This document shows, piece after piece, positions 14,011 through 25,544 of a stretch of 64,000 nucleotides of DNA (positions are counted from its first letter, which is position 1; each line of letters begins with the position of its first letter). Below the pieces are notes generated by a model. The model ran no database searches. It saw only the letters and a list, made by a program, of their open reading frames with translations, and was not told the DNA's origin. Made by a program: the position numbers and the translations under genes. Source of the stretch: an uncultured Clostridia bacterium (GTDB lineage Bacteria; Bacillota; Clostridia; TANB77; CAG-508); assembly GCA_944389425.1 (NCBI GenBank), contig CALXMH010000004.1, positions 32,001 to 96,000 on the forward strand, written 5' to 3'.

Positions 14011-14092
14011 CTGATACAATGAATAAATAAATTATTCAAATAAGTCGAGAGGGGCAAATGTTCAAGGACTTTGCCGGGTGATATTGTATCAA
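14011..14092 (+). ncRNA. Structured 3' part of the DGR template RNA
   Basis: Directly after the TR, GATACAAT (14012-14019) pairs with ATTGTATC (14084-14091). Inside, GGCAAA pairs with TTTGCC. RNA 3' of the TR is known to be needed for DGR cDNA priming, and this closed structure fits that role. Confidence 0.6.
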
Positions 14093-14186
14093 AGAAGTTT
14101 AATTCCTTTAACATAATTTAAATGTTATAAACACATAAACAGCATGTTTCGTTTTAGTAGTAAAATGGCGAAATTCCGAAATTGCG

Positions 14187-18172: not shown

Positions 18173-20403
18173 ATGGAGCTAAAGGGAATTGTAGGAGAGT
18201 TTATATATCAAAATGAAGTAAATCGGGTATAGCATTTGTGAATTCTATTTAGATGATGGAGAATTAATTACAGCAGTAGGATATTTGCCATTTATAAACT
18301 CAGGAGATACATTAAAAATCATAGGAAATTATGTAACACACAAAGAATATGGGGAACAATTTAAAATAGAAACATTTGAAAAATGTTTACCAGAGACATT
18401 AGAAGGATTAGAGCACTATTTAGCAGGAGGAGTTATAAAAGGAATAGGCCCTGCAACAGCTAAAAAGATAATTGCTACATTTCAAAATGAAACACTAGAA
18501 GTACTAAGAGGAAACCCACAAAGACTATGCCAAATTAGAGGAATAACATATGAAAGAGCAGAAGATATTGTAAACGAATTTAATGAAAAATGGGAGCTTT
18601 GGCAAATAGTTGGGTTCTTAGAAAAATTTGGCATAAGCACAGCTAATTGCAAAAAGGTATATACAGAATTAGGAGTAAATGCAATAGATGCAATAAAACA
18701 AAATCCATATATTTTGGTAGATATAACATATGGAGTTGATTTTAAAAAGATAGATAAAATGGCATTAGACATTGGAATAGATGTAAATAGTACAAAAAGA
18801 ATAGAAAGTGCAATAAAATATGCACTGAATTTAATTTCTAATAATGGACATACTTGTACTTTAAAACAAAGCCTAATATCATTTGTATCAGAACTATTAA
18901 ATGTTGAAAAAGACAATATAGAAGAAGGAATAATAAATTTAAAAGCAAAAAAAAGTATAGTAGAAGAAACAAGAGAAGACGAAACAACATGGCTATATTT
19001 ATATCCAACATATGTAGCAGAAGAAAATATAGCAGAAAAACTATTAAGGTTACAAAAAGCAAAAAATATAAAGAAAATAAAAAATATAAAAGCAGAAATT
19101 TTAAAACAGGAAAAACAAATAGATATAATACTCTCAGAAGAACAAAAAGAGGCAATTGAACTTGTAAATGAAAATAATGTATGTGTAATAACAGGAGGAC
19201 CTGGAACAGGAAAAACAACAATAATAAAAACAATAATAGATATATTTAAATTACATAAAAAGAAAGCTGTTTTATGTGCTCCAACAGGAAGAGCAGCAAA
19301 AAGAATGCAAGAAACAACAGGAGAAGAAGCAAAAACAATTCATAGATTATTAGAAATAGGAAAATTAGAAGAAGATAGAAATAGAGTAGAGTATGAAGTA
19401 GCACCAATAGATGCAGATGTAATAATTATAGATGAAATGTCAATGGTAGATTTATATATTATGAATTATTTAATGAAAGCAATATATTTAGGTACAAAAT
19501 TAATATTAGTAGGAGATGAAAATCAACTTCCATCTGTTGGACCTCGGTATGATACTTAAAGACATAATACAATCAGAAGAAATTCCAGTAATAAAACTAA
19601 AAAAAATATTTAGACAAGCAGCTCAGAGCCAAATTGTAGTAAATGCACATAATGTAAATAATGGAATTAGTTTTACAAATAAAGAAAAAAATAAAGAAGA
19701 AGGAACAAAAGATGACTTTTTTTATATTAATGATGAAATTCAAGAGAGAATATTATTAAAATTAATATCACTAAGTACTGGCAGAATACAAAAGTATGGA
19801 AATTATGATTTTTTTGAAAATATTCAAATACTAACTCCAACTAAAAAAGGAATGCTGGGAACAAAAGAACTAAACAAACAACTTCAAAAAGCAATAAATC
19901 CAGAAAGCGATTTAAAAAATGAAAAAACATATGGTGAAGTAACATTTAGAGAAGGCGACAGAGTAATGCAAATAAAAAACAATTATGATATATATTGGGA
20001 AAAACAAAAAGGAACAGAAACTGGTGTAGGAGTTTTTAATGGAGAAATAGGAAAAATTATTAAAATAGATAATACAGAAAAATATGTGAAAATAGAATTT
20101 GATGATGAAAAACAAGCTATGTATGCCTTTTCAGAATTGGATCAAATAGAACATGCGTATAGTATAACTATACATAAATCGCAAGGAAGTGAATTTGATG
20201 TTGTAATATTAATTATACCAAGAACTTATCAAATGTTACTTACAAGAAATTTACTATATACAGCATTAACAAGAGCAAAAAAATTACTTGTAGTAATTGG
20301 AGGAAAAGAAACAATAGATTTTATGGTACAAAACACTGATACTAAAAAAAGAAATACAGGATTAGAATATAAAATTAAAAATAATATAATGACAAATTTC
20401 TAA
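18173..20403 (+). CDS. recD2: RecD2-type ATP-dependent DNA helicase, two CGG +1 frameshifts
   Basis: SF1B 5'-3' helicase for DNA repair, about 742 residues. ATG 18173 begins MELKGIVGEFIYQNEVN; CGG 18224 ends this frame at once. Reading GGG gives GYSICEFYLDDGELITAVGYLPF and the OB domain. Later: HhH repeats, Walker A GGPGTGKTT (about residue 340), IIIDEMSMVD and GDENQLPSVGP. There CGG 19545 breaks the frame again and reading GGT gives GMILKDII, which completes motif III. The remaining motifs follow, with the terminal LTRNLLYTALTRAKKLLVV. Without both shifts no helicase could form. Confidence 0.92.
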
Positions 20404-23182: not shown

Positions 23183-23212
23183 TTGACAAAATAGCAGATA
23201 TCATCATATAAT
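23183..23212 (+). promoter_or_regulatory. Promoter of the cysK leader
   Basis: TTGACA (23183-23188), 18-base spacer, TATAAT (23207-23212). Confidence 0.85.
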
Positions 23213-23243
23213 ATAATAAATCCAAAATGAAAGGAAAATTTGT

Positions 23244-23285
23244 ATGAAATATAGAAATATAATCTTTAATTGTTGTTGTATGTAA
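23244..23285 (+). CDS. Cys-rich leader peptide MKYRNIIFNCCCM
   Basis: ATG with AAAGGA upstream and three consecutive TGT Cys codons just before the stop. It lies 140 bases before a cysteine synthase gene, with competing hairpins between. This has the layout of ribosome-mediated attenuation: ribosome stalling at Cys codons under cysteine shortage would change leader folding. Confidence 0.75.
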   Translation: MKYRNIIFNCCCM

Positions 23286-23286
23286 T

Positions 23287-23402
23287 AATACTCTATCTAT
23301 TGTAGATATGAGTATTAGGAAACATGCCTACAATAGAGATTATATTTTAAGTTAAATAAATTATAAGAACTATGTGGGTTAATATATATTCACATAGTTT
23401 TT
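23287..23402 (+). promoter_or_regulatory. Transcription attenuator of cysK
   Basis: Hairpin A: AATACTC-TATCTA (23287-23299) with TAGATA-T-GAGTATT (to 23316). Alternative B: CTATTGTAG (23297-23305) with CTACAATAG (23328-23336), mutually exclusive with A. Terminator: CTATGTG (23370-23376) with CACATAG (23391-23397) followed by TTTTT. The terminator ends 22 bases before the cysK start. Confidence 0.7.
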
Positions 23403-23423
23403 ATTTATATGGAGGGGATTTTT

Positions 23424-24411
23424 ATGTTAAGTAGTATTAGTACAATTGGAAATACACCTATGATTAAAATTAATTATGATTATAATGGAAAAGAAAGATA
23501 TGTTTACACTAAATTGGAGTATTATAATTTAACAGGAAGCATTAAAGATAGGGTGGCTTTTTACATTATCAAAAATGCAATAAAAAACGGAAACTTAAAA
23601 GATCGGAATGCCTATTATTGAAGCTACTAGTGGAAATACTGGAATTGCACTTGCTGCATTAGGAAGTTTATATAATTATCCTGTATACATTTTTATGCCT
23701 GATTGGGCAAGCAAAGAAAGAATTAATCTAATGAAAAATTATGGAGCAACTGTTACTTTATTTTCACGTGAAGAAGGAGGATTTGTAAAATGCGTGGAAG
23801 AAGCTCAAAAAATGGCAAAAGAAAAGAATGGATTTTTAGCTAATCAATTTGCAAATAGAGATAATTTTTTAGCACATTATGAGACAACTGCAAAGGAAAT
23901 ATTAGAACAAATTCCGGAAAAAGTTTATGGCTTTGTTTCTGGTGTTGGAACTGGTGGAACCTTAATGGGGGTTGGAAAAAGATTAAAAGAAGAATTTAAA
24001 GATTTAGAAATTGTAGCAATAGAGCCAGATAAAATGCCAATAATTTCAAAAGGCGAAATAATAGATAATCATAAAATAGAAGGTATTGGAGATGACTTTG
24101 TTCCAGATTTAGTAGATAAAAATGCTATTGATGACATTATTCTAATTAATGATGAAGATGCAATTAATATGGCTAGAATATTAGCAAGAAATTTAGGACT
24201 TGGTGTTGGTATTTCTTCTGGTGCCAATTTAATTGGCAGCATTTTGCTTAGCGAAAAGCTAAATAAACCAGTAGTTACCGTGTTTGCAGATGATAACAAA
24301 AAATATTTATCAACAGATTTATCAAATGATATAGATAAAAACAAAAAATTTATTTCTAATAATATTAATTTTAAAGGGTATGAAATTATTGAAAACAAGA
24401 ACATAAATTGA
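23424..24411 (+). CDS. cysK: Cysteine synthase (O-acetylserine sulfhydrylase), CGG +1 frameshift
   Basis: PLP enzyme making cysteine from O-acetylserine and sulfide, 328 residues. ATG 23424 with GGAGGGG gives SSISTIGNTPMIKI and the PLP-lysine motif TGSIKDRVAFYI. The zero frame ends five codons after CGG 23604. Reading GGA gives NLKD-G-MPIIEATSGNTGIALA, the substrate loop of the family, then SGVGTGGTLMGVG, the phosphate-binding loop. The PLP lysine lies before the shift and the TSGNTG and GTGGT loops after it, so neither fragment is active alone. The Cys leader peptide upstream supports the assignment. Confidence 0.92.
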
Positions 24412-24442: not shown

Positions 24443-25544
24443 ATGTTAGACTTAGAGCAAAATAAATTAGTTTTAAGAGATTTAAAATCAAAATTAGAAA
24501 AGATAGGTGTTTCTCTTTGACTTAGATAATATAAACAACAAAATCAATGAATTAAATAAACAAACATTAGAAAATGGATTCTGGAATGATAGAGAAAATT
24601 CTAGCAAGATTTTAACTGAACTTAAAAGATTAGAAAAAAAGAAAACAGCTTTTTTTAAAGTTAAAGAAGAACTTGAAAATATAATAGAAGTAAACGAAAT
24701 GCTTTTACAAGAAAATGATGAAGAATTAGGTAAGGAACTTGCGGAAAATACAAAGAAACTAGAAAAGACAATAGAAAACATGGAACTAGAGCTTATGTTT
24801 ACAGGAAAATACGATAAGAATAATGCAATAATTACATTACACCCAGGTGCAGGAGGAACAGAATCACAGGACTGGGCTGAAATGCTTTATAGAATGTATA
24901 CAAAATGGGCTATTTCAAATGGATTTACTGTAAAAGAATTAGACTATTTAGAAGGAGATGAAGCAGGAATTAAAAGTGTTACAGCATTAATTTCTGGTGA
25001 AAATGCATATGGATATTTAAAATGTGAAATGGGAGTTCATAGATTAGTTAGAATTTCACCTTTTGATAGTGGAGGAAGGCGCCATACATCCTTTGCTTCT
25101 GTTGAAGTTTTACCTGAAATTACAGAAGACATAGAAATAGAAATTAATCCAGATGATTTAAGAATAGATACTTATAGGTCATCTGGTGCTGGTGGTCAGC
25201 ATATAAATAAAACAGATTCAGCAATAAGAATTACTCATATTCCAACAAACATAGTAGTTAGCTGCCAATCTGAACGTTCGCAAATACAAAACAGAGAAAC
25301 AGCAATGAAAATGCTTAAATCTAAATTATTAGATTTAAAAGAAAAAGAACAAAAAGAAAAAATAGAAGACTTAAAAGGAGTACAAAAAGACATAGCATGG
25401 GGAAGTCAAATTCGCTCATATGTATTTCATCCATACAGTATGGTTAAAGATCATAGAACAGGATATGAAACAGGAAATGTAGAAGCAGTTATGAATGGGG
25501 AGCTAAACGAATTTATGAGAGCATATTTGCTTTGCAGCAAGTAA
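24443..25544 (+). CDS. prfB: Peptide chain release factor 2 with programmed +1 frameshift
   Basis: RF2 terminates at UGA/UAA. ATG 24443 opens 25 codons ending CTT TGA C (24515-24521). The canonical RF2 shift skips the T, and reading continues DLDNINNKINEL. Later the SPF tripeptide (RISPFDSGGRRHTSF) and the peptidyl-hydrolysis GGQ (SSGAGGQHINKTDSAIRITH) are present. The shift is the known autoregulation by RF2 level and is unrelated in sequence to the CGG sites of this window. Confidence 0.97.

Follow-up and report, generated by a model that had tools for sequence, protein, structure and literature searches.

The cysteine synthase gene cysK of an uncultured gut Clostridia bacterium is preceded by a short open reading frame (ORF) containing three cysteine codons and by an RNA with mutually exclusive helices that ends in an intrinsic terminator. 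We conclude that this leader very probably acts as a ribosome-mediated transcription attenuator, adjusting transcription of cysK to the supply of charged tRNA-Cys. Judging by sequence comparison, the RNA core is a module: in relatives the residue run of the peptide is HHH, LVGLLL or RRRR, with a His, branched-chain or Arg gene downstream. Positions given below refer to the window, the whole stretch of 64,000 nt that was analyzed, and all features of the leader lie on its + strand.

Organization of the cysK leader

The leader region (23183-23424) fills the space between the end of the upstream gene (23176) and the cysK start codon (23424). At its 5' end is a sigma-70-type promoter, TTGACA and TATAAT separated by 18 nt (23183..23212), that agrees with the consensus at 12 of 12 positions. 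A promoter with at least 10 of 12 matches is present in the 100 nt 5' of the leader start in 86% of homologous leaders, compared to 9% of shuffles, and typically ends about 31 nt before the leader ATG. The Shine-Dalgarno-like sequence AAAGGAAA (23230..23237) is followed by the leader ORF, whose 13 codons (23244..23285) encode MKYRNIIFNCCCM*; similar Shine-Dalgarno-like sites are found 5' of the leader ATG in nearly all homologues. The three Cys codons are all TGT, at 23271, 23274 and 23277 (23271-23279, segment 1 of the RNA described below).

Downstream, the cysK-family gene occupies 23424..24411. The encoded protein is assigned to the cysteine-synthase (cysK/cysM) family by a match to TIGR01136 (E = 5.6e-74) that was obtained with the single-frame 3' part only and is below the curated cut-off. 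The frame is broken near 23600 in the assembly. This break resembles a single-base frameshift, and genome completeness is 89%; it may be an assembly error or the mark of a decaying gene, and cysK may be mis-assembled or dead here. A recD2-like helicase (18285-20403) carries a second frameshift, its coding sequence lying in two overlapping frames (18285-19559 and 19516-20403), which may point to errors in the assembled sequence. Elsewhere in the window, prfB (release factor 2; 24444-25544) has its usual programmed frameshift site, CTTTGAC, and an RT-14 RNA at 14035-14185 (50.8 bits; cut-off 48.1) is the sole Rfam match.

The RNA at 23220-23412 folds with an energy of -55.4 kcal/mol, compared to -29.4 +/- 3.7 kcal/mol for dinucleotide shuffles (z = -7.1), and none of 200 shuffles was as stable. 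Six segments can be distinguished. Segment 1 (23255..23275), identified from the minimum free energy (MFE) fold and an inverted repeat, is ORF RNA complementary to 23331-23347, and is predicted to pair there in the untranslated state. Segment 2 (AATACTCTATCTA; 23287..23299) begins 1 nt past the stop codon and is paired in the MFE fold with segment 3 (TTGTAGATATGAGTATT; 23300..23316), for which covariation also supports pairing with segment 4 (23323..23337). Segment 4, defined by covariation and duplex energies, holds the switch strand 23326-23336 (GCCTACAATAG), whose partners are segment 3, segment 5 or segment 1. The intrinsic terminator (23363-23406), recognized from the fold and from inverted repeats, consists of arms at 23363-23376 and 23391-23404 followed by a T run; segment 5 (23363..23379) is its 5' arm plus a conserved GGT, and segment 6 (23391..23406) is its 3' arm plus the T run, both supported by covariation. 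In the antiterminator, 23326-23336 pairs with 23370-23379, that is, with part of the terminator 5' arm and the first loop bases. A simple terminator scan of the window did not pick up the terminator at 23363-23406, probably on account of its long loop.

A sequence-only reading of this DNA had pointed to a promoter, a 13-residue peptide with three Cys residues, competing hairpins and a terminator before cysK, and the sequence, the fold and the homologues agree with that description. It had counted two mutually exclusive hairpins. The competition between pairings is borne out; the count is not, as a single strand, segment 4, has three competing pairings: 1:4 in the untranslated MFE structure, 3:4, and the antiterminator 4:5, which that reading had missed.

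Distribution of the leader and correspondence between peptide and gene

Homologues of the leader are found in several families of one bacterial order. A DNA search with the leader retrieved true homologues in two relatives (L002 and L003), one of them before cysK; most of the matches were low-complexity AT-rich sequence, from which the true ones were set apart by peptide and gene context. The other, in another family of the order (L002/L084), precedes cysS and encodes the peptide MKKYIITNCCCCTY. The regions upstream of 30 cysK matches in the family yielded two further leaders. A covariance model built from five leaders, R1, matches 25 of the 390 genomes searched for the family and, at the level of the order, 40 of 385. 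Because the RNAalifold structure of R1 mixed the 1:4 and 3:4 pairings, we built a second model, R2, from the RNA 3' of the leader ORF only, which avoids circularity with the peptide. R2 gave about 110 matches in 85 of the 385 genomes of the order, spanning 25 of 48 genera. Over a 291-genome sample of the class it gave only two matches, both within the order, and none outside it. The genome containing the window has one true R2 copy; R1 and R2 also match the opposite strand there, owing to the nearly symmetrical hairpins.

Cys-run peptides in the same place on the same RNA recur with the hairpins and the associated genes in 39 genomes from at least 13 genera and 3 families, which is more than would be expected by chance; the conserved leaders that the sequence-only reading had suggested looking for in relatives do exist. 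Most cysK-bearing relatives in the family are without the leader. In a named collection, the core sequence occurs in records from uncultured Clostridia (metagenome-assembled genomes), one of which is titled sheep rumen. Five matches with no clear leader run (L204, L080, L079, L077 and L190) were left out of the evidence, and L082 and L161 are one locus. Upstream of cysK in another genome (L037, G051) is a possible degenerate leader that starts with GTG and has two Cys codons (VIRSCCNDLKFYK), with a family-like terminator further upstream; this is perhaps a decaying copy.

Since R2 leaves out the ORF, a match between the leader peptide and the downstream gene is not built into the search. We tallied peptides and genes after removal of duplicates, with gene identities taken from NCBIfam and Pfam on representatives. 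Among 41 Cys-run leaders, 18 are before cysK, 17 before cysS and 5 before cysE, and 1 is at a contig edge, so that the peptide matches the gene in 40 of the 40 readable cases. Leaders of the LVGLLL type (Leu/Val) have ilvB downstream in 8 of 8 cases, and the single RRRR leader has argB downstream. About 63 HHH or His-rich leaders precede hisS/hisZ, hisG, hisC, pepD (beta-Ala-His dipeptidase), an ABC solute-binding protein, and others. One genome (G413) has three kinds of leader: Cys at cysS, Leu at ilvB and His at a DapF-like gene. On the evidence of these peptide sequences, the element before cysK belongs to a family in which other members would read His, Leu/Val or Arg codons.

In two families of the order, hisG is preceded by two His leaders in tandem (L161, 320-683, in G065, and L149, 327-640, in G032), an arrangement that should sharpen the response. 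Genes of unknown role are also found behind HHH or His-rich leaders (for example, L166, L162, L165, L194 and L103), including DapF-like, GNAT, SBP_bac_3, PRTase-like and radical SAM genes, for which the module predicts roles in histidine metabolism or transport.

Covariation and predicted switching

The helices required for switching are conserved by compensatory change. Across 33 aligned leaders, 91% of the alignment cells in the 4:5 helix are paired, with two-sided changes at 5 pairs, compared to 20-51% in slid controls; across 100 leaders, the value is 82%, compared to 16-34% when slid. The 3:4 helix is paired in 90% of cells, with two-sided changes at 6 pairs (slid controls, 24-46%). The terminator is likewise conserved and covarying in relatives, with 98% of cells in the 5:6 helix paired and two-sided changes at 6 pairs. 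Individual leaders illustrate the covariation of strand 4 with strand 5. For example, CATACCT is opposite AGGTATG in L066, GTCTAC is opposite GTAGAC in L061 and L102, and in L078 CTACAATATAG is opposite CTATATGTAG, with an identical two-base insertion on each side. The conserved GG(C/T) 3' of the terminator arm is inside the terminator loop in many members, and is kept there because it is part of the 4:5 pairing. The duplex between a leader's own strands 4 and 5 has an energy of -13.1 kcal/mol, compared to -12.2 kcal/mol with swapped partners (0 of 2000 permutations) and -5.2 kcal/mol with a shuffled strand 4.

In Cys leaders, the stop codon is within a few nucleotides of segment 2; the beginning of segment 2 is therefore covered when the ribosome is at the stop codon and left exposed when it is at the first Cys codon. 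We modeled this by masked folding, in which the RNA covered by the ribosome was masked and the fold was taken just before the terminator 3' arm is made. A ribosome placed at the first sensed codon leaves strand 4 paired with strand 5 in all 111 leaders; one placed at the stop codon leaves it paired with strand 3 in 87 of 111. Both expected states are obtained together in 87 of 111 leaders, compared to 4 of 555 shuffles. For the leader in the window with the ribosome at the stop codon, 3:4 wins at footprints of +15 and +16 and not at +13, +14 or +17 to +20. The minimum-energy structure of its full-length transcript contains the terminator in either ribosome state. Because the terminator is thermodynamically favored in both states, readthrough must be kinetic and decided during transcription, as is the choice in known attenuators.

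Two hallmarks of an attenuator are thus present before cysK: a short ORF led by a Shine-Dalgarno sequence, with a residue run matching the amino acid of the downstream gene, and an intrinsic terminator with a mutually exclusive antiterminator, with covariation in 5:6, 4:5 and 3:4. We infer that the leader is translated, that the ribosome stalls within it and that cysteine starvation results in readthrough. RNA polymerase would start at the 23183-23212 promoter, with a ribosome trailing on the leader ORF. A shortage of Cys-tRNA would stall this ribosome on the Cys codons, where it would cover segment 1 and leave segment 2 free to form 2:3; segment 4, freed in this way, would then capture the terminator 5' arm (4:5), allowing readthrough into cysK. 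With ample Cys-tRNA, the ribosome would reach the stop codon and cover the start of segment 2, such that 3:4 would form, followed by the terminator 5:6, and transcription would end at about 23405. If the leader were not translated, segment 1 or segment 3 could hold segment 4, and the terminator should form too.

Alternative explanations

A strong conserved structure 5' of a biosynthetic gene could also indicate a metabolite-binding riboswitch or a T-box that controls cysK, with the small ORF being incidental, and the related trpB motif has been put forward as a riboswitch candidate (PMC11109978). We consider this explanation extremely unlikely for the leader before cysK, however, because it contains no T-box or other regulatory Rfam family, the sole strongly gene-matched variable is the residue run of the peptide, and one RNA core serves four amino acids, which a single aptamer could not do. 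The T-box model (RF00230) has no match in the window, while the same model finds T-boxes elsewhere in the genome. That T-boxes or CymR are the more usual control in such bacteria, as the sequence-only reading had held, needs qualifying as regards T-boxes: four T-boxes are present in this genome and T-boxes are present in 36 of 37 relatives, indicating that the attenuator coexists with them. Replacement of the leader by a T-box at cysK was considered and rejected, as 0 of 20 leaderless relatives have an Rfam regulator near cysK.

Control at the level of translation or linked to Rho, in which the ORF would tune cysK through coupling or mRNA stability and the hairpin would be the ordinary terminator of the upstream gene, is very unlikely. 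It is favored by the position of the terminator, only about 20 nt 5' of the cysK start codon, and by the translation attenuation described for mycobacterial polycysteine uORFs in work cited in PMC13236596. Yet the promoter sits between the upstream gene and the terminator. In addition, the terminator covaries, and its 5' arm and loop GG(C/T) covary with strand 4, which would be needless in an unregulated terminator. Runs of Cys can bind metals, and the small peptide might itself be functional, for example as a Cys-rich metal-binding peptide, with the RNA structure secondary. This idea is scarcely credible, since sister RNAs carry gene-matched HHH, LVGLLL or RRRR at the same position and the length and flanks of the peptide vary freely among leaders. 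Amino-acid attenuation by a Cys leader, as the sequence-only reading proposed, is the best-supported interpretation, given the recurrence of Cys-run peptides before cysK, cysS and cysE.

Relationship to the trpB motif

The leader belongs to no Rfam family, and when 18 relatives were scanned permissively the only match at a leader was a weak one, to the trpB motif. The trpB motif (RF04312; SRC-39-1) was proposed by its authors to be a riboswitch, with an attenuator not ruled out, and consists of a hairpin, P1, with an antiterminator in its right shoulder, followed by a terminator (PMC11109978). The leader in the window has this same layout. RF04312 itself has no match in the window, and no genome tested in our class and phylum search reaches its 59-bit gathering cut-off. 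In one relative (L154) the trpB-motif match scores 34.6 bits, and sub-threshold matches in other Clostridia families score 38-52 bits against the cut-off of 59. Conversely, R2 finds several trpB-like RNAs at 30-41 bits.

Thirteen of 18 sub-threshold trpB-motif matches have an ORF led by a Shine-Dalgarno sequence with a residue run that ends just before P1 (for example, L213, L215, L222 and L226). These include HHH to HHHHH before hisZ, YYY or YY before amino-acid transporters of the BPD_transp_2 permease or SNF type, and a Phe-rich run, also before an SNF transporter. The same strand-4/strand-5 antiterminator was found in 10 of these 13 by automated pairing and in the other 3 by eye. Five matches with no matching leader run (L216, L219, L220, L221 and L229) were treated as chance matches of the trpB model. 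Recognition by R2 and the shared antiterminator suggest common descent or strong convergence with the trpB motif, and, as a hypothesis drawn from sub-threshold matches, the trpB motif may be an attenuator class. We put at about even the chances that the leaders of this order and the trpB motif, which is found across Bacillota and Fusobacteria, are a single ancient module that serves generally for leader-peptide attenuation and changes specificity when the codon run is swapped. If so, the trpB motif would not be a riboswitch. The module offers a direct test of whether this orphan riboswitch candidate is a leader-peptide attenuator.

Comparison with known attenuators

Leader-peptide attenuation is a classical mechanism. 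The attenuator of the enteric his operon is of a six-segment type, with a run of the sensed residue in the leader peptide, a stop codon adjoining segment 2, and alternates 2:3/4:5 and 3:4/5:6 that end in an intrinsic terminator. The cysK leader shares the residue run, the stop codon by segment 2 and the logic of the alternates. However, the two are unrelated in sequence, and the cysK leader differs in the predicted pairing of segments 1 and 4 when untranslated and in the reuse of its core for Cys, Leu/Val and Arg. The Rfam His_leader model (RF00514) has no match in the window or in the relatives with HHH leaders.

Within Bacillota, leader-peptide transcription attenuation has been described for hisS*/hisZ of bacilli and for his operons in the Bacillus cereus group, Peptostreptococcaceae and Erysipelotrichales (Naville & Gautheret 2010, PMC2965389; Ashniev et al. 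2022, PMC9413887). As far as the accessible text of these sources goes, they deal with histidine only, and describe neither an RNA module that crosses amino acids nor a cysteine case. Cys leaders are known from other phyla. In the uORFC-8-2 motif of Rhodobacterales, a cysS uORF with two tandem Cys codons and a terminator, ribosome-mediated attenuation was proposed (PMC8632094). Compared by description, its gene and codon logic resemble those of the leader in the window; it differs in being alphaproteobacterial, in having its Cys codons within the first stem, at about positions 14-15, in its two-stem model, and in its restriction to cysS. In mycobacteria, runs of Cys codons in short ORFs control cysteine genes (Canestrari et al. 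2020, cited in PMC13236596). As presented there, these actinobacterial uORFs are leaderless and act by translation attenuation, in contrast to the ORF led by a Shine-Dalgarno sequence and the intrinsic terminator found here.

In the open-access literature searched, we found neither a Cys attenuator reported for Bacillota nor a single RNA module common to Cys, His, Leu/Val and Arg leaders. Leader-peptide attenuation and Cys leaders in other phyla are thus known, and a Cys transcription attenuator in Bacillota appears to be described here for the first time. The leader before cysK would represent a reusable RNA module whose choice of sensed amino acid depends on the leader codons alone, such that, in this order, the module may fill a part that T-boxes play elsewhere.
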